From a virus: a stretch of 23,463 bases of DNA. The position numbers and the translations under genes were made by a program. Positions 1,799 through 23,463 of this stretch are shown piece by piece. How positions within the stretch are numbered: position 1 is the stretch's first letter; every line of letters starts with the position of its first letter. Under the pieces are notes generated by a model that was not told the origin of the DNA, searched no databases, and saw only the letters and a program-made list of their open reading frames with translations. The stretch lies in the IMG/VR virus record IMGVR_UViG_3300013137_002379, positions 1-23,463 of that record; one strand, written 5' to 3'.

Positions 1799-2806
1799 TC
1801 AGAAGTTTAACCTGCGGATTTGTTCTTGTTTGTGGGGAGAATGGATATGGGTATAGATTTTCGTAGTAACCCATGAAGAATGTCCTGCCCATTCAGAGAC
1901 AGTAGGAATATCCACCCCTGCAAGCAAAGCCTGTGTAATAAAGGTGTGGCGTAATTCATGAAGTTTAAGATTTGGTATCTTCGCCTTTTTTGCTATCCTG
2001 CCAAAAATTCTGCGGTAATTAGTTGTATTAAAACATTTGCCCGAATCCTTTCTGTGCTTCCAGAGAATAATTTTAAGTTTAGGATGTAATTCAATTGTGC
2101 GGTTCTTTTTTGATTTAGTGGTAAAATCTTTTTTATTTCGCACCAGCAATATATTGTGTTTAAAATCTATATCTGGCCATTCCAGGGCAAGGAGTTCACC
2201 TTTACGCAAGCCTGCGTAAATAGCCGTAGCCACGAATGGTAGAAGCGTAGGTTTGCCATCGCAATAAACATCTGGATTCGCAGCTGACTTCAAGACTTCT
2301 TTAATTTGTTCTTTAGTTAAAAAGCGCCGTGATGTTTCCGGAGTTTTAAATTTCTTAATATTCTCAATGGGATTTGTGGCAATGATTTTCGACTTTACAC
2401 ACCAATTAAGCCAACCCTTGATGGCAATGATAATGTTGTTTGCTTCATAGATTGATACTTTTTCAAGTCGTTTATTTAGATATTCTTGGAAATTGGTTTC
2501 TGTTATTTGTTTAATTCTCACAGCCTGCGACCATGTGAGAAATTTTTCTATTCTGCTTCTGACAGCAGAATTTACGCTGGGGGTTCTTCGGCGCTCATAA
2601 AAAGCCATATAGATATTTAAGACTGGGATGCATTCAGCATTTTGGGTGGGTATCTCGTAACGACCTTCAATTAGTTCTTTATCTTTCTGGGCTTTGAGAT
2701 AATTAGCAGTAGAGCGGTCTTTGGTCTTAAGGCTGATGTTGTAGGAACGGTTATTATAGCGAAAGGAAAGCCAGTAAATTTTGTTGCGGCGATAAAGAGA
2801 ACTCAT
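1799..2806 (-). CDS. int: Phage tyrosine recombinase (integrase)
   Basis: This 335-residue site-specific recombinase should integrate and excise the phage at the neighbouring tRNA-Arg sequence. It has an N-terminal arm-type region (about 1-55), a SAM-like core-binding domain (about 60-155) and a C-terminal catalytic domain (about 160-330). The catalytic set is complete: Arg201 in AGLRKGE, a lysine in TTKSKK (231 or 233), His283 and Arg286 in HELRHTF, His309 in GHSS, and the nucleophile Tyr318 in KIYTH. Length is normal for the family. The ATG overlaps the stop of the small upstream gene as ATGA, so it is the last gene of the leftward repressor operon. Its 3' end points at the tRNA fragment, the standard int-att arrangement. 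Confidence 0.95.
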   Translation of the reverse strand: MSSLYRRNKIYWLSFRYNNRSYNISLKTKDRSTANYLKAQKDKELIEGRYEIPTQNAECIPVLNIYMAFYERRRTPSVNSAVRSRIEKFLTWSQAVRIKQITETNFQEYLNKRLEKVSIYEANNIIIAIKGWLNWCVKSKIIATNPIENIKKFKTPETSRRFLTKEQIKEVLKSAANPDVYCDGKPTLLPFVATAIYAGLRKGELLALEWPDIDFKHNILLVRNKKDFTTKSKKNRTIELHPKLKIILWKHRKDSGKCFNTTNYRRIFGRIAKKAKIPNLKLHELRHTFITQALLAGVDIPTVSEWAGHSSWVTTKIYTHIHSPHKQEQIRRLNF

Positions 2807-3259: not shown

Positions 3260-3868
3260 TCAAAATTTTATTCCTACGACTTTATGGATAAATTCGATTT
3301 CTTCGTCTTTGACTACAATTGGTTCATAAGCATCAGCTATATTGATACTCAGAAAACTAATTACCTTATTTTTCTTTTCTTTATGGTAACGTTTAAATAG
3401 CTGATCGCCATCCTTAAGTTTTACGAAAACAAGATCGCCGTTTTGAATTGGCATATTTTCGCAATATATAATTTTTTGTCCTTTATAAGCGATTGGAGCC
3501 ATAGAGTTTGATTCCACGATTACAGCCTTACAATTCTTAAAATTTATTGTCTCGTAGGGTGGATTTAAAGGCAGGTATCCAGCGTGGCCTTTTTCATCAG
3601 TGGCGCCTACGCGCGAGACAATCGGGATTTGAGTATCTTGGATTTCGATAGTTTTAAGGCCGCCAAAAAGTTCAGCCTCAGAAATTTTTAATACTTCACA
3701 GAGTTTTTTACGATTCTCAGGATTTGGCTCACTTACTTTTCGTTCCCAGGAAGAAACAACAGATTGTCTTAAATTAAGTTTATTCGCCAATTCCTTTTGA
3801 CGAATTCCTTTAGTTTTTCTAATTTGTTTGATTCGTTCACCTATGTGCATATTTACAATTTTTAACAT
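3260..3868 (-). CDS. CI/LexA-like repressor (HTH_3 + peptidase S24)
   Basis: This 202-residue protein has an N-terminal Xre-type helix-turn-helix (about 8-63; GIRQKELANKLNLRQSVVSSWE) and a C-terminal S24 domain (about 80-200). The serine of the Ser-Lys dyad is Ser122 in ESNSMAP, and Lys159 in LFKRYH fits the lysine. A candidate cleavage pair is Ala96-Gly97, though it is closer to the serine than usual, so self-cleavage is uncertain. It should bind the TACGAA-type sites at 3873-4035, hold down the rightward promoters and respond to RecA after DNA damage. Neither Met1 nor Met7 has a good Shine-Dalgarno. It is divergent from the Cro-like gene and leads the immunity-integrase operon. Confidence 0.9.
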   Translation of the reverse strand: MLKIVNMHIGERIKQIRKTKGIRQKELANKLNLRQSVVSSWERKVSEPNPENRKKLCEVLKISEAELFGGLKTIEIQDTQIPIVSRVGATDEKGHAGYLPLNPPYETINFKNCKAVIVESNSMAPIAYKGQKIIYCENMPIQNGDLVFVKLKDGDQLFKRYHKEKKNKVISFLSINIADAYEPIVVKDEEIEFIHKVVGIKF

Positions 3869-8904: not shown

Positions 8905-9619
8905 CCCAGAATATCCTTTCGAAGAAGAAATAGCATTACTTTCTATACCAGCGCGTTATTTTTACATGCTGAGCTGGTGCCATATGGACGACACTAATGG
9001 AGTGCTCCCTTACAACATATATAAACTTAAAGGTCAAATTTTTCCCGAAGATAATATAGATGTTCAGTCTATTATCCTGGAGTTACTGAAGTTAAGGAGA
9101 TTGTTTGAATTCGAAGCGGGGGGCAAAAAGTGGCTATGGTGTCCCACATTATTGAAACATCAAGTCATAAATAACCCCTCAAGAAAAAAATATCCCGATC
9201 CTCCTAAAAAACTACAGGAGGACTACCGTAGTGGTAAGTTAGCACTAACTCTGAGTAGAGTAGAAAGAGTAGAAAGAGTAGATATAAAAGATCAGGCTAC
9301 GCCTGAATTTTTTAATAAACCTACTGAAGAACAAAAAGAAGAATTAGCCAAACTCCATATATTACTTAAAGATAGAATTAATATTTTTAATTTTATGGCT
9401 AGGATACGCAAACAAAAAGGGTATTTTCCCCCAGTTGAAGCCATAATCAAAATAGGCCAACAGGCTTTAAAAACTCAACCCGCGAATTTTTGGGGATACT
9501 TTGTAGAAGCGCTTAAAAAAGAATTGCCTGGATATTTTGCGGATTTAAATATAAAAGAGCACGAAAAATACAAAAATGAACCAGTAATTATAGGGGATTT
9601 ATTAGTGAAACAACAATGA
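8882..9619 (+). CDS. Phage replication initiator-like winged-helix protein
   Basis: This 245-residue protein has an N-terminal domain (about 1-100) resembling the winged helix of phage replisome organiser proteins: SIPARYFYMLSWCHMDDTNG, LPYNIYKLKGQIFP, a helix ending in LLKLRRLFEF, a KWLWCP strand, and then HQVINNPSRKKYPDPP, the usual segment after this domain. A charged linker with a tandem RVE repeat (nucleotides about 9257-9285) leads to a helical C-terminal part (140-235), perhaps for helicase or loader contact. It probably binds the phage origin, which may lie within the gene, though I see no clear iteron array. A strong AGGGGGAG site precedes the ATG. No helicase or polymerase gene is visible, so host replication proteins would be recruited. 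Confidence 0.65.
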   Translation: MARKRQFDPEYPFEEEIALLSIPARYFYMLSWCHMDDTNGVLPYNIYKLKGQIFPEDNIDVQSIILELLKLRRLFEFEAGGKKWLWCPTLLKHQVINNPSRKKYPDPPKKLQEDYRSGKLALTLSRVERVERVDIKDQATPEFFNKPTEEQKEELAKLHILLKDRINIFNFMARIRKQKGYFPPVEAIIKIGQQALKTQPANFWGYFVEALKKELPGYFADLNIKEHEKYKNEPVIIGDLLVKQQ

Positions 9620-9999
9620 GTAAACAGCTCGAGCAAAAACTCCAAGAACAATATACCTTCTATCTTTATAGTCGAGGTGTTCTCTTTTGCGCCTCTGCTG
9701 GGGGTCTTCATACGCCGAATAAGCTGGCCGCTATTCGCATGAAGCGTGCTGGATACAAAGCCGGACATCCAGATGTCGTCATATATGAACCCCGCGGCGG
9801 ATGGCATGGTATGACCGTGGAATTAAAAGTTAAGACTTATGCTAAAACACCACAGAAGAATTGGCGTGATGAATTATTGAAACGCGGGTATTATGCAATT
9901 ATTGTCCCGGGGAAATTCGATTTTTATGAAGCCCGTAAATTCTTAGAAGAAGAAACAAACAAATATTTAAAAGGGGAGATTAAATATGCCTCAGACTAA
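9616..9999 (+). CDS. VRR-NUC domain nuclease
   Basis: The 127-residue protein carries the VRR-NUC type PD-(D/E)XK fold: AGGLHTPNKLAAIRMKRAG, then GHPDVVI with the metal-binding Asp, then MTVELKVK with the Glu-x-Lys catalytic pair, and Q.NWRDELLKRGYYAIIV as the closing helix and strand. Stand-alone phage members cut branched DNA or flaps and may resolve recombination intermediates. It starts in an ATGA overlap with the replication gene, linking it to replication or recombination. Length is typical of phage versions. Confidence 0.85.
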   Translation: MSKQLEQKLQEQYTFYLYSRGVLFCASAGGLHTPNKLAAIRMKRAGYKAGHPDVVIYEPRGGWHGMTVELKVKTYAKTPQKNWRDELLKRGYYAIIVPGKFDFYEARKFLEEETNKYLKGEIKYASD

Positions 10000-10008
10000 A
10001 GGAGGAAC

Positions 10009-11271
10009 ATGTCAAAGATAATATGGACAGTTCAGAAACGCAAAATCTTAGAGCTTAATCCCGCACCATACAATCCGCGAAAGATGACAGATAAACAGGC
10101 AGAGGATCTTTCAAAATCCCTCGCGCGCTTCGGATTGGCTGAACCAGTGGTTATAAATCTGAATAATAGTATTATAGGAGGACATCAGAGGATTAAGGTT
10201 TTGGAAAGGCAGGGAGTAGTTGAAATAGATGTTATGGTCCCGGATAGACTTCTTAATCCAGAGGAGGAAAAAGAACTTAACCTTCGCTTGAATAAGAATG
10301 TCGGCGAGTTCGATTTGGAGATGTTATCGCATTTTACAGCAGATATGCTTGATGATGTAGGTTTTACCCCTGATGAGATGCAGTCTATATTCGATACCGA
10401 GGTTATTGAAGATGGATTTGACGCACAAGCCGAATACGATTCCATAGGCGAAGCTCAAACTAAAAGAGGCGATTTATATATTTTAAACGATCACAGGTTG
10501 CTATGCGGCGATTCCACATCGCATGATGATGTGGCGCGCGTAATGGATGGGCAGCTGGCGGATATGGTGTTTACGGACCCGCCCTACAATGTTGACTATA
10601 AATACGCAAAATATGAAGCAATACATAAAGGCAGGAAGCGTAAGTTTATCAATGGGAGTAAAGTATTTAATGATAATAAGACGCCTGAGCAATTTTATCA
10701 GTTCTTATTGGATGTGTTTTTATTATTATATATGTTTTCAAAAAAGAGCATGAGTATTTATATTTGCTACGCAACAAAAACACAAGATGAATTCTTTGAC
10801 GCGTTTAGAAACGCAGGGTTTCATTTCTCGCAGACTATAATATGGCTTAAGGAGCGAATTATCCTCGCGCTCGGTCAGGATTACCACAGAGTTTATGAGC
10901 CGATAATATTTGGGTGGAAGAAAGGAGAAAATCATTACAAAAATAAAACCATAACCAAAGAGAAGGAGGTTTGGGATTTAGATCGCATAGATTTTGAGGA
11001 GAGACTTGATGTTTGGCATATCAGCCGCGATAAATCATCAGAGTATGAGCACCCTACACAGAGACCTGTTAGATTGCCAGAACGTGCCATAAAGAAGAAT
11101 TGTCCGATGGGGGGGGTATTGTTGGAGCCATTCGGAGGATCGGGATCTACTATGATGGCTTGCGAACAGTTGAAGCGCAGGTGTTTTTTAATTGAGCTCG
11201 ACCCCAAGTATTGCGATGTTATAGTTAAACGTTGGGAGAGGTTTACTAATAAAAAGGCAGAGAGAGTATAA
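10009..11271 (+). CDS. ParB-domain / DNA adenine methyltransferase fusion
   Basis: This 420-residue protein has an N-terminal ParB/Srx-like domain (about 10-130; PYNPRKM and IIGGHQR at 55-61) joined to a beta-order amino methyltransferase. Motif IV is DPPY at 190-193, HPTQRP at 348-353, and motif I is EPFGGSG at 373-379. ParB-methyltransferase fusions are widespread in phages; the first domain may bind nucleotide or DNA and direct methylation. AAAGGAGGAAC gives an excellent start. It ends the recognised early operon. It is the second orphan methyltransferase here, so two methylation patterns or one pattern plus a regulatory mark are possible. Confidence 0.9.
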   Translation: MSKIIWTVQKRKILELNPAPYNPRKMTDKQAEDLSKSLARFGLAEPVVINLNNSIIGGHQRIKVLERQGVVEIDVMVPDRLLNPEEEKELNLRLNKNVGEFDLEMLSHFTADMLDDVGFTPDEMQSIFDTEVIEDGFDAQAEYDSIGEAQTKRGDLYILNDHRLLCGDSTSHDDVARVMDGQLADMVFTDPPYNVDYKYAKYEAIHKGRKRKFINGSKVFNDNKTPEQFYQFLLDVFLLLYMFSKKSMSIYICYATKTQDEFFDAFRNAGFHFSQTIIWLKERIILALGQDYHRVYEPIIFGWKKGENHYKNKTITKEKEVWDLDRIDFEERLDVWHISRDKSSEYEHPTQRPVRLPERAIKKNCPMGGVLLEPFGGSGSTMMACEQLKRRCFLIELDPKYCDVIVKRWERFTNKKAERV

Positions 11272-11306
11272 GCCGGATAGCGGTGCACTCTTGGAGATAA
11301 TCCAAA

Positions 11307-11335
11307 CGGGCAGGCGATTAAAACTCCCGCTTTTT
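11307..11335 (+). terminator. Weak terminator-like hairpin after the early operon
   Basis: CGGGcAG pairs with CTCCCG leaving a bulged C, with a 10-nt loop and then CTTTTT. The stem is only six pairs, so this is a weak call. It lies just after the methyltransferase and before the unassigned block. Confidence 0.3.
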
Positions 11336-11382
11336 ATGAAGAATAATCTTAAACCACACTGGCCTGGAGAACTGATACAGTA

Positions 11383-16497: not shown

Positions 16498-17490
16498 ATG
16501 AGAGAAATTTCTAAAGGCCAGAAGATAGCAAAGATTTTTAGGGGTATTGTTAAAAGTTTTGATGAGAAAACTCATATTGCAACCGTGGTGATTTCCACAA
16601 AAGCAATTGATAGAGATGGTGAAGTAATTGAACCGGCTGCATTTCAAAAACGTCTCGGAAATTATATGGCTCACCCAATCTTATTAAGTTCTCATCGCGC
16701 AGAAAATCTTATGCGTCAAATTGGCGAAGCAAAAGAGATAAAAATAACCGATGAAGGAGTTGAAGGTATTTATGAATGGTATGTTGGTAAAGGCAATGCC
16801 GAAGCTGACTGGGGTTGGTTCTTAGTTATGCGTGGCATCGCAGCTTTTTCTGTCGGCTTTATTCCTTTTGAATGGATTGATACTCAGCCGGGTTCTGATG
16901 AAAGAAATAAAGGCATTTGGCGTAGGTATGTAGATATTGAGTTATTAGAGAATAGTCAGGTTTTAGTTCCGGCTAACCCCCAGGCACTGCAGCGCAGGAT
17001 AAGTGAAGTGCAGGGGGAAGAAAAAGAATTATGTGAATTAGTGGCAAAGGAAGTTAAGGCAGAAGAAATGGCTCTATTTGATGAAGTGGATGAATCAAAA
17101 ATGAAGAAAGAGGATAAGGAAAAACAGAAAATAACAGAAGAGAAATCTCAAATGATAAGAGAGATTATAGAAGATGCTATCTTCGTAAACGAGAAGTTTC
17201 TTGCCAGGTTTAAAGAGATGGTTTCAGGGGAAACAAAAAAGAAGATGGATGAATTATTACAACAATATTGCGATATAACCGCAGAAAAGATTGTTGAGAT
17301 GTTAATTGAGAAGAAATCACTTCCTCCGCATTATTCGGAGATTCTTTTGGGAGATGGAGACCAAGGTCTCAAACATTCTCCGACAAAAGAAAACGAAAAT
17401 AAACAAGGAGTTTCAGTAGCAATTGACACAAAGTCGATTGCCGATGCCGTGAAAAGCGGCTTTAAAGAAGGGTTAAAAAACAATGAATAA
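16498..17490 (+). CDS. HK97-type prohead protease with scaffold-like tail
   Basis: Residues 10-165 match the HK97 prohead protease family (U35): STKAIDRDGEVIEPAAF, a catalytic-type His66 in LLSSHRA, Ser118 in IAAFSVGF, and LLENSQVLVPANP. It would cleave the capsid delta domain and itself during maturation. Residues 165-330 are highly charged and helical (long Lys/Glu-rich coiled coil), like a scaffolding region, ending in KSGFKEGLKNNE. At 330 residues it is longer than a simple protease of about 200, so protease and scaffold are probably combined. AAGGAGGAATT gives the start. It overlaps the capsid gene by 8 nt. Confidence 0.9.
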   Translation: MREISKGQKIAKIFRGIVKSFDEKTHIATVVISTKAIDRDGEVIEPAAFQKRLGNYMAHPILLSSHRAENLMRQIGEAKEIKITDEGVEGIYEWYVGKGNAEADWGWFLVMRGIAAFSVGFIPFEWIDTQPGSDERNKGIWRRYVDIELLENSQVLVPANPQALQRRISEVQGEEKELCELVAKEVKAEEMALFDEVDESKMKKEDKEKQKITEEKSQMIREIIEDAIFVNEKFLARFKEMVSGETKKKMDELLQQYCDITAEKIVEMLIEKKSLPPHYSEILLGDGDQGLKHSPTKENENKQGVSVAIDTKSIADAVKSGFKEGLKNNE

Positions 17491-18787
17491 GTGTAAACAT
17501 TGCGGAAAAGATGTAGAGAAGGACGCGAAAGTCTGCCCGCATTGCCAGAAATCATTAGAGGATACAGCGAATGATGGCGTAATTGAGGCTGTCAAGTCAG
17601 CTGTAAAGGCTGAGATTTCTCCTTTAAGCGCTAAAATCGATGATGTCGATAAAAGGCTTAAGGTGGTTGAAGCTCTTCCTCTGAGAAATATGGCTGTTGC
17701 TGGGGCTGGGATAATAGTTCCCAGGACATATCGCGGTTACAAAGTGCATGAACAAGGTGCAGAGCTTCGCGAGAAGTTTAGTTCCAGGGCAAACTGGTTC
17801 AAGACACTCTCTAAACCGGAGAATTTTGATAAGTTTGTAGAATTCATGCTCGATGTCAAATTTGCCTTAACAGGCGATTTGAAAGCCATGCAAAAGCTTC
17901 AAGAGGCTAGAGAAAAGGCGTCAGACCTGGCAGAAGGCACAGATTCTCTGGGCGGATATCTGGTTCCCGTGGAACACCAGATGGACCTAATTAGGTTAGC
18001 GCGCGAGAAATCTTTTGCGATGCAGCTTTGCCGAGTCGTAACAATGGGCAAGAACACACAGAATTGGCCTTCTGAGGCAACTCTCGTGGATGTCACTTGG
18101 GAAGATGAGGCGGGTTCAATCGATGAGCAGAACCCAACATGGGGGCAGGTTCAACTCGTGACAAAGAAATGCGCTGGTATGACTAGCGGTATCTCTAATG
18201 AGCTACTCGCTGATTCTGATGTCGACATCGTTGGAGAACTTACCGAGCAGTTCATGTATGCTATCGGGTTATCCGTTGATAACCAAGTGCTTAACGGCAC
18301 TGGATCACCATGTTCCGGCGTGTTATCAGCTGCAGTATCGAATGTGGTTACTCTCGCAGGTAATCATGCTTCTTCGATAACAGCTGATAAGCTCTCAGAG
18401 GCAATTTATACTCTGAGCGAAGAAGATGCGAATGCTGCTACGTTTATTTACAGCCGCTTGGTGCAACACTACATTCGTATCCTTAAGGATACTTATGGCC
18501 AATATATCTGGCAAAGACCAGGCGAAGGAAGACCGGGAACAATTTGGGAACTTCCCTACAGGGAAAGCACTAAAGCTCCGGCGGGCACTGCTTCTAATAC
18601 TGCATTCGGAATTCTCGGAAATTGGAAGCTATTCATGATAGGCCTAAGAAACGGGACTATGACTTTTGCCGCAGATCCGTACGGCAAGTTCTCCACGGAT
18701 CAGACAAGATTCAGAGTAACGCAACGTATGGCTTTGAAGATAGCTCGGGCATCAGCGTTCGTTAAAATTAAGACTAATTCTGTCTAA
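17483..18787 (+). CDS. HK97-fold major capsid protein with N-terminal zinc ribbon
   Basis: The 434-residue protein is recognised as an HK97-type capsid protein by its delta-like helical N-terminal region (about 30-148), then SLGGYLVPVEHQ at 155-166, an E-loop and P-domain region, and a C-terminal part with ILGNWKLFMIGLRNG and QTRFRVTQRMALKI. Before the delta region, residues 1-24 form a zinc ribbon with Cys4, Cys7, Cys18 and Cys21, which is unusual for a capsid protein. It probably lies inside the prohead and may be removed by the upstream protease. The start follows an AAGGG site and overlaps the protease gene. A later start at Met70 has no good ribosome-binding site. Confidence 0.9.
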   Translation: MNKCKHCGKDVEKDAKVCPHCQKSLEDTANDGVIEAVKSAVKAEISPLSAKIDDVDKRLKVVEALPLRNMAVAGAGIIVPRTYRGYKVHEQGAELREKFSSRANWFKTLSKPENFDKFVEFMLDVKFALTGDLKAMQKLQEAREKASDLAEGTDSLGGYLVPVEHQMDLIRLAREKSFAMQLCRVVTMGKNTQNWPSEATLVDVTWEDEAGSIDEQNPTWGQVQLVTKKCAGMTSGISNELLADSDVDIVGELTEQFMYAIGLSVDNQVLNGTGSPCSGVLSAAVSNVVTLAGNHASSITADKLSEAIYTLSEEDANAATFIYSRLVQHYIRILKDTYGQYIWQRPGEGRPGTIWELPYRESTKAPAGTASNTAFGILGNWKLFMIGLRNGTMTFAADPYGKFSTDQTRFRVTQRMALKIARASAFVKIKTNSV

Positions 18788-18808: not shown

Positions 18809-18836
18809 CTGGGCTGGCCTTAATCGGCTGGCCCAG
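18809..18836 (+). other. Strong stem-loop after the capsid gene, without a T-run
   Basis: CTGGGC and GCCCAG form the outer stem, two G-U wobble pairs and GCC/GGC the inner stem, with a TTAATC loop: 11 pairs in RNA. No T-run follows on either strand, so it is unlikely to be a normal intrinsic terminator. It may protect the capsid mRNA 3' end or lower read-through into the next cassette. Confidence 0.55.
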
Positions 18837-18855: not shown

Positions 18856-19503
18856 ATGGATTTAAGAAATTATCTTCTACCAGAAAACTTTATAAAAGAC
18901 GATCATGCGAAGCAATATTTTGCGGGGCATTTAGATAGATTTCTTTATCATATTGACGTATTTGAACGATTAATTTCTGGGCCAACTGACGAAAAAACTG
19001 CGGAAAGATTTAAAGTCTATGATTTTGGTTCATGGCTTCCGTTTTCTACTTGGTATTTTTATAAGAAATATAAGGCAAGAGTGATTTATTTTTATATGGA
19101 ACGCGCTGAACCATTAAACGAAAGAGTTGAACCATGCCGGATGAATCTCTGTGACCCGGTTGCGCTTTATGAGGCCGATGTTGTAGTTGCAACAGAAGTA
19201 TTAGAGCATTTGCCATGTAATCTCTATAACACATTAGATTTTATGGCTAAATGTGTCAAGAAGGGCGGATATTTATTTTTATCTTTTCCTACGGGGCCGA
19301 TTGGTGCAGATATTGGCTATAATAAAGATATTCCTGGTAAAAGACCCGATATTGAGCATGAACATTTAAGAGAGTTTCCAATAGAAAAGGCGCGTGAGTT
19401 TTACGGTCGACTTAAATTTGAAGTCCTTGAAGAGAAATGTGTTAAGACGCTGTTTTATAACAACGCAGATGGCATTTTACATGTATTGTTGAGGAAAAGA
19501 TGA
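18856..19503 (+). CDS. SAM-dependent methyltransferase-like protein
   Basis: The start is ATG 18856 with AAAAAGG 6 nt upstream; an in-frame ATG at 18805 lies before the stem-loop. The 215-residue product resembles a class I methyltransferase. The post-motif region ADVVVATEVLEHLP (about 107-120) and CVKKGGYLFLSFPTG (133-147) are typical. Motif I is unusual: VYDFGSWLPFS at 54-64 where D.G.G would be expected, so AdoMet binding may be altered. It probably acts on a small molecule, sugar or lipid-linked glycan, judging from the neighbouring glycosyltransferase and radical SAM genes. It overlaps the next gene as ATGA. Confidence 0.7.
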   Translation: MDLRNYLLPENFIKDDHAKQYFAGHLDRFLYHIDVFERLISGPTDEKTAERFKVYDFGSWLPFSTWYFYKKYKARVIYFYMERAEPLNERVEPCRMNLCDPVALYEADVVVATEVLEHLPCNLYNTLDFMAKCVKKGGYLFLSFPTGPIGADIGYNKDIPGKRPDIEHEHLREFPIEKAREFYGRLKFEVLEEKCVKTLFYNNADGILHVLLRKR

Positions 19504-20057
19504 AAAAAAAGTTTTTAATTTTAGGTTCAGCGCCATCGATAACTCAATGGTGTCAAAAATATCTCGAGCAAGAACTCAATGCAGGATACTTTTTGTGCGC
19601 AATCAATAATGCATGGAATGCCTTCCCCGATATTAAAGATAAGTTAAAAATTTGGTTTCGGTCGGCTGATTTCTTTTATTTTCAATATACGATTAAGCCA
19701 GATGAGGAATTGCGCAATAAATGGTATGAGGTTGTGCGTTTTTTGTCCGAGCCGTGTTGGTATGAGAGGAAAGATAATGGAACGATGATATTGAATGCAA
19801 TTTGCCATATTATCAATCTCGGTGAAAATAATAACAGAAAAATCATTCTCCATATAGCGGGAAGTAATCTTATTTATGAAAATGGACAATCGCACTTTTA
19901 CGGTAAAGGCACTCCTGATCCATTGAGATTAGGTGAAGAATATCTTAAAAAGCAACTTTGCAGCATTAATGGATTCGCAGAAGAACACGGCCATAAAATT
20001 TATAATGTAGATTACCAGGAAAATACCTTGCTACCATTTGAGAGGTTAGATTTATGA
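19500..20057 (+). CDS. Rossmann-like protein, possible DUF115/GT42-type glycosyltransferase
   Basis: This 185-residue protein begins KKFLILGSAPSITQW, a strand followed by a GS.PS loop, as in the MAF/DUF115 family and in GT42 sialyltransferases. It then has FLCAINNAWNAFPDIKDKLKIWF, where IN.AW resembles the N..F position of those families. A second strand, RKIILHIAGSNLIY, and the FYGKGTPDPLR segment follow. The likeness is by pattern only; a different nucleotide-sugar or nucleotidyl enzyme is possible. It overlaps both neighbours by 4 nt as ATGA, so it works in the same pathway as the methyltransferase and radical SAM enzyme. Confidence 0.45.
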   Translation: MKKKFLILGSAPSITQWCQKYLEQELNAGYFLCAINNAWNAFPDIKDKLKIWFRSADFFYFQYTIKPDEELRNKWYEVVRFLSEPCWYERKDNGTMILNAICHIINLGENNNRKIILHIAGSNLIYENGQSHFYGKGTPDPLRLGEEYLKKQLCSINGFAEEHGHKIYNVDYQENTLLPFERLDL

Positions 20058-20860
20058 AAGCTATTATATGGGTTGAGAGAACTAATTGCAATAATCATTG
20101 TAATTATTGCATTGTATATCGCAGGAATATTCCGCAAGCGGATGTAGGTTGGCAGGATTGGGTTGCTTTGTTTAACAGGTTTAAACCAGAAGTTCTGGAT
20201 ATAACTGGTGGCGAACCTTTTTTAAATTTAAATATGGTAGATATTATTAAGGCGCTGGATTCATCGATAAAACTTGGGATAACGACTAATTTAACGCAAG
20301 ATATGACACGATTTGTAAACGAAGTTTCTACTGATAGGATTTGCAATATTACACTTTCTTATCATCCGTCGCAGGCATTATCAATAGAAGCGTTTCTGGG
20401 GAAAGCCTTAATGTTGAAGAATAGGGGATATCTGATTAATGTCAATTTTGTAATGTATCCAGAACAACTTTGGCTATGTGATAATCTTAAGGAGATATTT
20501 GAAATAAAACATGGCATAAGATTCCATGTTGACCCTTATGCGACAAATCCGTTGTTTCCTTGTGAATTGACAACGGCGGAGAAAGAATTTGTCCAGAAGT
20601 TTGTTGGTGTTGACCGTGATTATCGCTTCAAGGAGAAAAAAACTAATAGGGTTAAATGTTCGGCGGGAAATAATTATTTACTTATTCAACCTGATGGCTC
20701 GGCTTTCCGATGTATGACAATGGTATGGAATGATAAAGGGTCTATGGGGAATGTGTTTTCTCCTGATTTTAAAATAGATAATGAGCCAAAAATCTGCGAG
20801 AATTATTTTAACTGCGCTGGTTGCGATATGGATAAAGTAACTATCGAGGAATTATTATGA
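20054..20860 (+). CDS. Radical SAM enzyme with SPASM-like C-terminus
   Basis: The 268-residue enzyme has the radical SAM cluster motif C12-x3-C16-x2-C19 (NCNNHCNYC) and a GGEP motif at 52-55, so it binds a 4Fe-4S cluster and AdoMet to make a 5'-deoxyadenosyl radical. Its C-terminus resembles a SPASM/twitch auxiliary cluster: C202-SAGNNYLLIQPDGSAFRC220, GNVF, then C248, C254 and C257. Such enzymes modify peptides, sugars or cofactors. The substrate is unknown; a short core at 268 residues fits a compact type. It is translationally coupled on both sides (ATGA), to the Rossmann-like gene upstream and the zinc-ribbon microprotein downstream. Confidence 0.85.
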   Translation: MKAIIWVERTNCNNHCNYCIVYRRNIPQADVGWQDWVALFNRFKPEVLDITGGEPFLNLNMVDIIKALDSSIKLGITTNLTQDMTRFVNEVSTDRICNITLSYHPSQALSIEAFLGKALMLKNRGYLINVNFVMYPEQLWLCDNLKEIFEIKHGIRFHVDPYATNPLFPCELTTAEKEFVQKFVGVDRDYRFKEKKTNRVKCSAGNNYLLIQPDGSAFRCMTMVWNDKGSMGNVFSPDFKIDNEPKICENYFNCAGCDMDKVTIEELL

Positions 20861-21027
20861 TAGGGGATACACGTAAAGTATATCAATGCAGTATTTGTGG
20901 CAAAATTAAATATGTTGATCCAAAATATGCGCTTTCGGAAAGGACGCTTATTTGTTGTGGAGTCGCGATGATTATAAAAAGCAGGGGAGTTATAAGAAAA
21001 CCTTTAAGCAATTATGTTAAAAAATAA
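20857..21027 (+). CDS. Zinc-ribbon microprotein downstream of radical SAM gene
   Basis: This 56-residue product begins at an ATGA overlap with the radical SAM gene and has CSIC (11-14) and CC (33-34) as likely zinc ligands, followed by a basic tail (IIKSRGVIRKPLSNYVKK). It overlaps the glycosyltransferase gene by 14 nt. Such a small partner next to a radical SAM/SPASM enzyme could be a substrate or a metal-binding helper, but that is inference; it could also be an independent regulator. No known precursor-peptide motif is seen. Confidence 0.55.
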   Translation: MIGDTRKVYQCSICGKIKYVDPKYALSERTLICCGVAMIIKSRGVIRKPLSNYVKK

Positions 21028-22204
21028 TACAGCAAAACAGAAAAAGATTAAAGTTCATTGGGTAGTTAAGCCTAATGATAAATCAGTTGCCAATGCCTTA
21101 GGTTACAATGTGCACAATATGGCAATGTATAAGCATTGCGCAGAATATTTTGATTATGACGAGAATGCATCCGTTGCTATCACGATTATACCTGCAGACC
21201 AATTTAAACCCGTTCCCAATAAAAGAAATATTCTTTTTACTATGTGGGAAGCGATAGATGTGCCACAAAGTTATATCCCTGGACTGCGAGCGGCTGACCT
21301 TATAGTTGTGCCTTCTGAATTCTGCAGGGAAATCTTTCAGCTATTGACGGATAAAAAGGTCATAACGTGTTTTGAGGGTGTTGATACGAATATTTTTAAA
21401 TTCAAAGAAAGACAATTCCCTAATTTTTCAAAAGGAGAGAAATTTAGATATCTGTGGATAGGGGCTCCTAATCCGCGCAAAGGATATTACACTATAATGG
21501 AATTCTCTAAAATTGTAGAAAAATTACCACAGGTTGAGCTTTATATTAAGACAACTTCTGATAAGCCTTTAATATTTAAGAATCTTATTAAGATTATTTT
21601 TATTAGGTTGTGGAAAATGCTAATAAATGATAGCCGTTTTTATGGCCACAAATATACTTATTGGCAAAATTGGCTTGGTGAATGGAAGAATATTAAAGGT
21701 TCATTCAAGAGGTATTTTAATCCGCCACCAGAAGGTCAACATATCATTATGGGTAAGTATAAAAATATAATCTTCGATGCTCGAAAGTTAGAGTTTAATG
21801 ATTTGGTTGATTTATATTATTCGGCCCACTGTTTTGTTATTCCGCATGCTGGTGAGGGGTGGTGTTTACCCTTATGTGAGGCAATGGCGACAGGTTGTCC
21901 GTCAGTAGCAAGTTATTCGACTGGCGTCTTAGATTTCTTTAGTAAGAATGTAGGATATCCAGTCCAAACAGATGTTGTCAAATGCCCCATGCAAAATTAT
22001 GATATAACAGCAAGAATATACGTTCCCCAAACGCAAGATTTTGTTAAGCAGGCACTGGCTGTATTAAATGACTATCGAGAGGCAAAGAAACGTGCAAAAA
22101 AAGCTGCTTATGAAATCAAAACCAAGTTTACATGGGAAAAGTCAGCCTATAGACTTAATAATATCGTTAGAGAATTTTTAGAAAAGGGCGAAGCCAATGC
22201 GTAA
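21014..22204 (+). CDS. GT4-family glycosyltransferase
   Basis: The 396-residue protein is a GT-B glycosyltransferase of the GT4 type, which transfers a sugar from a nucleotide-sugar donor. The N-terminal acceptor domain runs to about 140, with VVPSEFCREIF and FEGVDTNIF as in this family. The donor domain has YLWIGAPNPRKGYYTIMEF and the EX7E motif at Glu281 and Glu289 (HAGEGWCLPLCEAMATGCP). No membrane segment is obvious apart from a hydrophobic patch at 188-203, so it is probably cytoplasmic or peripherally bound. It overlaps both neighbours, tying it to the fibre-like gene that follows and raising the possibility that it glycosylates that protein or a surface glycan. Confidence 0.9.
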   Translation: MLKNNTAKQKKIKVHWVVKPNDKSVANALGYNVHNMAMYKHCAEYFDYDENASVAITIIPADQFKPVPNKRNILFTMWEAIDVPQSYIPGLRAADLIVVPSEFCREIFQLLTDKKVITCFEGVDTNIFKFKERQFPNFSKGEKFRYLWIGAPNPRKGYYTIMEFSKIVEKLPQVELYIKTTSDKPLIFKNLIKIIFIRLWKMLINDSRFYGHKYTYWQNWLGEWKNIKGSFKRYFNPPPEGQHIIMGKYKNIIFDARKLEFNDLVDLYYSAHCFVIPHAGEGWCLPLCEAMATGCPSVASYSTGVLDFFSKNVGYPVQTDVVKCPMQNYDITARIYVPQTQDFVKQALAVLNDYREAKKRAKKAAYEIKTKFTWEKSAYRLNNIVREFLEKGEANA

Positions 22205-23463
22205 AAAATTAATTACTATTATTTTACCATTTTTAATTCTTACCTCTTCTGTTTTTGCTACAGAAATATATTTATGGCGGTATCGAAGCCATGCTACAGA
22301 TTGCACATCTTTAACAGATGGTAAACTAAGGGATTTATGTTATGAGCAAGACAGCCAGAATCTCTATAAATGTGAGCCAACTTCAGGGGATTGCGATATT
22401 CCTTCAGAATGGAAATTAATTGAACCCATAGAAACCGACCCTATATTTTCTGCCTGGGACAAAGATTATGCTGACCTAATCAATAAACCCACAATTCCTT
22501 CGGCATTATCAGAATTAAGCGATGACAGCACTCATCGTCTTGTTGCTGATACTGAAAAATCCGTATGGAATGCCAAGCAAGATGCCCTTGTTTCCGGGAC
22601 AAATATTAAAACAATAAACTCTGCCACATTATTAGGAAGTGGAGATATTGCCTTAGTAGCTTCCGAATCTGACCCCAAAGTCGGCACATTAACATCGAAT
22701 TATCTTTCTAAATGGGGGACAGCTACTTTAACTAACTCCGTTATTTATGACGATGGCACAAATGTTGGCATAGGAACAACAAGCCCAGGGGCTTTGCTTC
22801 ATGTAAACGGCACGTTTAATTTAAACGGCACTACCAGCTTCTCGGGATGGGATACCAGCGCCTCTGACGATATCACCACATCCAGCACCTGGACAGGAGG
22901 GGATTTATCAGGCACTGGCTTGGCGGCTACAGTTGTTGATGACAGCCATAACCATATATACAGCAACATAGACGCAACTACCTCTATCAACTGGGCAAGC
23001 GTTGTCTCTGATGAAACAGGCTCTGGCGCCTGGGTATTCGGCACATCGCCTACATTTACAACTTCTGTAATTATGTCTGATGGAGCGACTCTCGGCCAAT
23101 CAGCCGGGCCCCTGGTTGCTTTTGATGATACGAATAATTATCTGGAAATAACCGGTGCAAATGTCGGCATCGGGACGACTGCGCCGGCAACAGAGCTTGA
23201 AGTTAACGGCACAATAACAGCCACAACCTTTGCAGGAAGCGCCGCATCTCTAACGAGCATTCCAGCAACTCAACTCACCGGCACAGTGGACAACGCCAGG
23301 TTAGATGCAGACCTGCAGGATTTGGCAGATGGCAGCCTCACAGGTTCAAAAGTAAGTTCAGCTGCCGCAGACGGCGCGACAAAAGGCGCAGCCTCATTTG
23401 CTGCCGCAGACTTTGACGCCTCATCAGGGAATATCTCTATAGATTATGCTAATGCCCAGGCTG
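22197..23463 (+). CDS. Secreted fibre-like protein with VGIGTT repeats, 3' end outside window
   Basis: The frame opens at ATG 22197, overlapping the glycosyltransferase by 8 nt, and stays open to the window end (422 codons), so it is incomplete. Residues 1-21 form a Sec signal peptide: MRKK, a hydrophobic ITIILPFLILT core and a VFA cleavage-type end. The mature part is Thr/Ser/Gly-rich and has at least two fibre repeats, NVGIGTTSP...HVNGT (about 22761-22814) and NVGIGTTAP...EVNGT (about 23160-23213), as in tail-fibre and S74-chaperone adhesins. A phage tail fibre would not normally carry an export signal, so this may be a surface adhesin made by the lysogen. Composition rises toward GC in the repeats. 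Confidence 0.75.
   Translation, partial: MRKKLITIILPFLILTSSVFATEIYLWRYRSHATDCTSLTDGKLRDLCYEQDSQNLYKCEPTSGDCDIPSEWKLIEPIETDPIFSAWDKDYADLINKPTIPSALSELSDDSTHRLVADTEKSVWNAKQDALVSGTNIKTINSATLLGSGDIALVASESDPKVGTLTSNYLSKWGTATLTNSVIYDDGTNVGIGTTSPGALLHVNGTFNLNGTTSFSGWDTSASDDITTSSTWTGGDLSGTGLAATVVDDSHNHIYSNIDATTSINWASVVSDETGSGAWVFGTSPTFTTSVIMSDGATLGQSAGPLVAFDDTNNYLEITGANVGIGTTAPATELEVNGTITATTFAGSAASLTSIPATQLTGTVDNARLDADLQDLADGSLTGSKVSSAAADGATKGAASFAAADFDASSGNISIDYANAQA

Follow-up and report, generated by a model that had tools for sequence, protein, structure and literature searches.

In the head region of Pseudomonas phage D3 (and PAJU2), gp7 is labelled "alpha-2,3-sialyltransferase" (family phrog_4603) and gp13 is a methyltransferase. 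Phages P1 and P7 carry a phrog_4603 protein and a glycosyltransferase in one operon, pmgO-pmgP-ppp-pmgQ (hdmB-hdmC-ppp-hdmD), whose genes bear head morphogenesis names. D3 gp7 and P1 PmgO/P have so far been recorded as "putative morphogenetic" or "sialyltransferase-like". P1 pmgO, pmgP and pmgQ are nonessential by CRISPR interference and also by the earlier deletion data tabulated there (PMC10695390). In mycobacteriophages (Che8 and relatives, described in PMC11256854), phage-encoded glycosyltransferases are reported to decorate virion proteins (PMC11256854, PMC12619734). Phage glycosyltransferases have otherwise been proposed to alter host surfaces or DNA (PMC7150976). Here we analyzed a six-gene cassette in IMG/VR virus record IMGVR_UViG_3300013137_002379, a complete linear record of 23463 bases that is called the window below. 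We tentatively read the cassette as an accessory, late-expressed glycan modification system between the capsid gene and (unseen) connector genes, with a probability of roughly 0.48. Its genes are as follows.

18856-19503, plus strand: class I SAM methyltransferase, 215 aa (PF13489 Methyltransf_23, 3.4e-8, above cut-off)
19500-20057, plus strand: ORF2, 185 aa, remote relative of D3 gp7/P1 PmgO/P7 HdmB (directed profile, hhalign)
20054-20860, plus strand: radical SAM enzyme, 268 aa, with a SPASM/twitch-like C terminus (PF04055, 5.3e-8, above cut-off)
20857-21027, plus strand: desulforedoxin-like microprotein, 56 aa, with cysteines C11, C14, C33 and C34 (PDB 1cfw)
21014-22204, plus strand: GT4 retaining-type glycosyltransferase, 396 aa (PF20706, PF13692 and PF00534 above cut-offs; phrog_2170, 2.8e-25)
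22197-23463 (contig end, open), plus strand: tail-fibre-like protein with an N-terminal Sec-type signal (phrog_16348, 3.5e-10; phrog_9942 tail fiber, 3.3e-5)

These six open reading frames (ORFs) were observed directly 3' of an HK97-type capsid gene. Neighbouring ORFs share 4, 4, 4, 14 and 8 nt at the five junctions, in order, and the first three junctions read ATGA, which agrees with the overlaps and the three ATGA junctions of the original prediction. The GT4 stop codon is at 22202-22204, giving the 8-nt overlap with the fibre ORF, and the fibre gene runs open into the contig end. The cassette had also been said to take the place of connector and tail genes. Its position after the capsid gene holds, but the record is linear and ends in the sixth cassette gene, so connectors and tail genes may lie just beyond the contig. 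When the five enzyme genes were scanned with Pfam and PHROG, none matched connector, neck or assembly families, and a connector or assembly module was rejected as the identity of the cassette for this reason. A match to known virion assembly modules, which had been named as evidence against the original prediction, was thus not seen for any of the five. The GC content of the enzyme genes (33-36%) is barely under the window mean (38.5%), so composition marks no recent import. Import judged by composition was rejected.

ORF2 had been described as a Rossmann-like enzyme and is re-read here as a remote member of the D3 gp7/P1 PmgO family, whose PHROG entry, phrog_4603, is labelled "alpha-2,3-sialyltransferase, MptE-like". 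Relatives were retrieved with a bait consensus containing GxGPS and HWHG motifs, an approximate query, which returned 76 phage records including D3 gp7, P1 PmgO/PmgP, P7 HdmB and Caulobacter phages. Against a profile built from nine real family members, ORF2 scored 13.4 bits, and the best of 2000 ORF2 shuffles scored 5.3. The same profile run over 216 window frames ranked ORF2 first, with the runner-up at 3.0 bits. In hhalign, ORF2 matched the phrog_4603 family with an E-value of 2.3e-5 over 40 N-terminal columns. The C-terminal stretch IAGSNLIYENGQSHFYG resembles the family pattern G-x-D ... H-[WF]-[HY]-G by eye, with N replacing D, and lies outside the profile alignment. An alignment of ORF2 with L083-type proteins looked misaligned.

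The radical SAM enzyme has both superfamily motifs, CX3CX2C as CNNHCNYC (C12, C16, C19) and GGEP. It is nearest to the STM4011 family (NF038073, 2e-13), yet below the cut-off of that model. The radical SAM part of the earlier description is therefore sound, but its SPASM-like part fits less well and looks degenerate: the SPASM model PF13186 gave an E-value of 0.006, under the Pfam cut-off, and five cysteines lie past residue 200 (202, 220, 248, 254 and 257) compared with seven in SPASM.

The small gene that follows had been taken to encode a zinc-ribbon microprotein. Its product is instead closest to desulforedoxin, and a zinc-ribbon regulator was rejected because desulforedoxin fits better. 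The best PDB match is desulforedoxin 1cfw (E 0.048), with 4/4 cysteines aligned in the CX2C ... CC site. The pattern Y-C-CG ... CCG-M is shared with three other loci (L199, L201 and L206). Desulforedoxin has a rubredoxin-type FeCys4 fold, and the iron site of the family sits in a fold of ~36 aa. Scores were below the curated cut-offs (PF06397, 16.1 of 23 bits; TIGR00319, 3.3e-4, 20.3 of 36.05 bits), and we therefore call the protein desulforedoxin-like and do not file it as a member.

A radical SAM/SPASM enzyme next to a 56-aa protein also brings to mind the maturation of ribosomally synthesized and post-translationally modified peptides (RiPPs), with the microprotein as the precursor peptide. 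Enzymes of this class commonly modify short peptides encoded alongside, and weak matches to peptide maturase models were present. However, Pfam and NCBIfam scans found no RiPP recognition element, leader peptidase or exporter, and the alignment to desulforedoxin with all four cysteines makes the microprotein resemble a folded metal protein. We regard RiPP-like maturation as extremely improbable.

The glycosyltransferase has the GT4/GT-B C-terminal domain and the EX7E motif as E281-X7-E289. Its AlphaFold2 model (predicted template modelling score 0.76) shows a GT-B fold with 267 PDB matches at E<=0.001. The best match is 3oy2, the chlorovirus NY2A glycosyltransferase (E 1.3e-11), and uncultured Caudovirales glycosyltransferases are matched as well. 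A pairwise comparison of the window methyltransferase with D3 gp13 gave no significant match.

The GT4 enzyme also matches the GT4-conflict family, and the early genes of the window include DUF4406 and DUF1599, the latter a "nucleotide modification associated" domain. Both facts would suit a role in DNA hypermodification, in which the GT4, methyltransferase and radical SAM enzymes decorate modified bases of the phage DNA. However, scanning the window ORFs, all but about ten small ones, revealed no hydroxymethylase, no TET/JBP-type oxygenase and no thymidylate-synthase homologue, and the cassette is late and distant from the replication genes. Because the scanned ORFs hold no base-modifying enzyme, DNA hypermodification is disfavoured, and we consider it very improbable.

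The fibre begins with MRKKLITIILPFLILTSSVFA-TEIYLW, which we read as a Sec-type signal, and its Ser+Thr content is 25%. A fibre scan yielded 15 genome and 42 viral loci, and cassette enzymes were found in none of them. Sec-type N-terminal signals recur on fibre-like proteins of viral loci L023, L024, L029/L030, L046, L051 and L059. At L024, the Sec-signal fibre-like gene overlaps the portal gene directly.

To find the cassette genes elsewhere, we searched IMG/VR and phage records, and no other locus had the complete six-gene set. Single-protein scans of IMG/VR with the radical SAM enzyme, GT4, ORF2 and terL returned nothing close, nor did a GT4 scan of genome contigs. Phage-record protein searches with the radical SAM enzyme, ORF2 and the methyltransferase gave zero matches. 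A radical SAM scan of two phyla (240 and 247 genomes) gave four weak matches, none with cassette neighbours. The radical SAM and desulforedoxin pair was seen in this window only. On the other hand, the GT4 family is frequent on viral contigs (at least 496 loci), and pairs of cassette genes recur. A D3-gp7-like gene was within a few kb of a methyltransferase or glycosyltransferase in 8/10 contexts (D3, P7, CcrSC, S20, Eowyn, RAS14, IME392 and L083), the ten having been chosen for spread and not randomly. At L134 and L154, a looser radical SAM motif scan found a radical SAM gene ending ~0.7-0.8 kb upstream of a GT4 relative. At L077 and L083, radical SAM, 2-oxoglutarate-Fe(II) oxygenase and MptE-like genes lie within ~4 kb, the radical SAM gene being ~1-2 kb from the MptE-like gene, with methyltransferases a few kb upstream (DxGxG motifs, by eye). 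The large-phage loci L077-L083 as a group cluster methyltransferase-like genes, a radical SAM gene, a 2-oxoglutarate-Fe(II) oxygenase and an MptE-like protein. The original prediction had proposed a joint co-occurrence check, with scattered, unlinked homologues as the result that would speak against it. The outcome is divided: these searches found the full set at no other locus, which is partly that result, but pairs do recur.

The same searches bear on whether these genes are unrelated passengers, that is, morons with separate jobs gathered in one hot spot and overlapped through the compactness of phage genomes. A complete set found nowhere else, single-gene relatives in differing contexts and a GC content that is not distinctive would all be expected of passengers. 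Translational coupling is suggested instead by the overlaps at five successive junctions, three of which are ATGA, and the methyltransferase, glycosyltransferase and D3-gp7-like genes recur together. We consider an assembly of unrelated passengers improbable.

In an accessory glycan modification system, the enzymes would probably build an unusual sugar and attach it to a surface that is produced late in the infection. Transfer or preparation of sugar residues would fall to the GT4 enzyme and the D3-gp7-like protein, and chemical alteration of the sugar to two other enzymes: methylation to the methyltransferase, and radical dehydrogenation, epimerization or a similar reaction to the radical SAM enzyme. 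The desulforedoxin-like protein could be the one-electron donor of the radical SAM enzyme, to whose gene its own would be coupled in translation. The product that is decorated would be a virion protein or the fibre, which is Sec-exported, rich in Ser/Thr and encoded directly after GT4. A phage late protein of either kind is the most likely target, and a host surface glycan ranks next. The full chain, in which a desulforedoxin-type protein feeds the radical SAM enzyme and the remodelled sugar is placed on the virion or the Sec-exported fibre by the GT4 and D3-gp7-like proteins, is doubtful when taken in all its parts. We know of no described phage-encoded radical SAM redox pair serving surface decoration.

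Other relevant features of the window are given here.

1799-2806, minus strand: tyrosine integrase
3260-3868, minus strand: LexA-like repressor
17483-18787, plus strand: HK97-type major capsid gene with an N-terminal zinc-ribbon (PF05065, 2e-50; PF13248, 3e-5; phrog_10)
18809-18836, plus strand: hairpin with an 11-bp stem and a 6-nt loop (fold z -4.8; 0/200 shuffles as stable)

The gene content is that of a temperate phage fragment, with the integrase and the repressor on the minus strand, and early genes. The order ahead of the cassette is terS, terL, portal and MuF, S78 protease and HK97 capsid. The hairpin sits in the 68-nt gap between the capsid gene and the cassette, and lacks a U-tract on the plus strand. 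Possible roles are limiting read-through out of the capsid message or marking a site of mRNA processing. Promoters were not in excess (21 found compared with 17.8 expected).

The temperate gene set would fit a cassette that alters host surface polysaccharide in infection or lysogeny to block superinfection or readsorption of progeny. GT4 and methyltransferase chemistry suits O-antigen-type tailoring, and an exported fibre could be displayed on the cell surface. However, the cassette is on the late strand past the capsid gene without a clear promoter of its own, and the strong upstream hairpin alone does not imply independent expression. The hallmarks of serotype conversion (gtr-type), namely GtrA flippase, GtrB bactoprenol glucosyltransferase and a serotype-specific integral-membrane enzyme, were not found in the cassette by Pfam and NCBIfam scans, and neither was an acetyltransferase. 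We judge this host-surface role unlikely. Decoration of a late protein is slightly likelier than alteration of the receptor in a lysogen because the cassette is on the late strand and coupled to the fibre gene, and because of the parallels in D3 and S20 described below. The original prediction therefore survives at the level of class, since surface or glycan modification is the best reading of the GT4, methyltransferase and D3-gp7/PmgO-like genes. Its specific ideas, lysogenic conversion and exclusion of other phages through an altered receptor, are possible and had no direct support.

Several observations weigh against late glycan modification as we propose it. ORF2 had no direct family match in the Pfam, PHROG or NCBIfam scans. 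The relatives behind its apparent homology were collected with the approximate bait, and membership must be called remote because the alignment covers mainly the N-terminal 40 residues. The single-sequence AlphaFold2 model of ORF2 was poor (predicted local distance difference test 51) and fell below use for structure search. The best-scoring GT4 relatives mostly adjoin ribonucleotide reductase, outside such cassettes. A cytoplasmic glycosyltransferase would have to act on a fibre that is exported by Sec. No phage relatives of the microprotein were found, and a radical SAM neighbour was present in 0/30 Patescibacteria desulforedoxin-family loci; the redox partnership is thus drawn from gene order and fold. 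Target and sugar chemistry are likewise inferences.

Other features of the window were also noted. Genes for DUF4406 and DUF1599 lie at 644-1321, upstream of the integrase. Two DNA methylases are among the window genes, and the ORF at 10009-11271 encodes an N6/N4 DNA methylase fused to a ParB-like N-terminal domain. The capsid protein starts with a zinc-ribbon, MNKCKHCG...CPHC (window 17483-17570), ahead of the HK97 capsid fold. Two capsid relatives were found, L002 and L003, in which short ORFs and tail-type genes come after the capsid gene, judged from ORF order. In L003, the gene at 9227-11341 is a protease-capsid fusion, and the MNKCKHCG motif also opens its capsid part.

Relatives of D3 gp7 recur beside glycosyltransferase and methyltransferase genes, sometimes after the capsid gene. 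A scattered set of orphan genes thereby yields a hypothesis open to test, namely that late proteins or surfaces are decorated in many phages. Should the radical SAM and desulforedoxin pair prove part of the cassette, phages would have unusual sugar chemistry that is their own.

In phage D3, the order is HK97-type as in the window, with the phrog_4603 gene lying between the capsid gene, which it follows directly, and the head-tail adaptor, and the Methyltransf_23 gene 2 kb further on. In the D3 record (L168, 5691-6409), the region past the capsid gene is divided between orf6.5 and orf7. The orf7 frame is open upstream to ~5813 and homology runs from 5861, so orf7 may begin earlier than annotated. 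Unlike in the window, the D3 accessory genes are interleaved with connectors, and radical SAM, desulforedoxin and GT4 genes are absent.

The P1/P7 operon resembles the cassette in its gene pairing, but it adjoins baseplate and tail genes, includes a phosphatase and has no radical SAM gene. In the L077-L083 loci a radical SAM gene is near an MptE-like gene, and at L134/L154 one has a GT4 relative no more than ~1 kb away. However, these radical SAM proteins are longer (~400-430 aa), of other architecture and without desulforedoxin. The likeness to mycobacteriophages lies in phage glycosyltransferases acting on virion proteins and is drawn from descriptions, not from sequence comparison of the glycosyltransferase genes. 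In Tetraselmis-associated virus S20/SI1, the S20 glycosyltransferase has a GT-D fold, and no radical SAM enzyme or microprotein was identified there, but S20 has two phrog_4603 genes and that glycosyltransferase in the post-capsid slot. Glycan-type genes are thus observed to recur in this position, and the D3 and S20 genes indicate that accessory genes of glycan type can occupy the slot between capsid and connectors. Together with the dispensable P1 pmgO, pmgP and pmgQ, these parallels support an accessory, late-expressed glycan-modifying cassette over a role in virion assembly. Cassettes of this kind are already known from a few other phages, and it is the addition of a radical SAM enzyme and a desulforedoxin-like protein that makes this one unusual.

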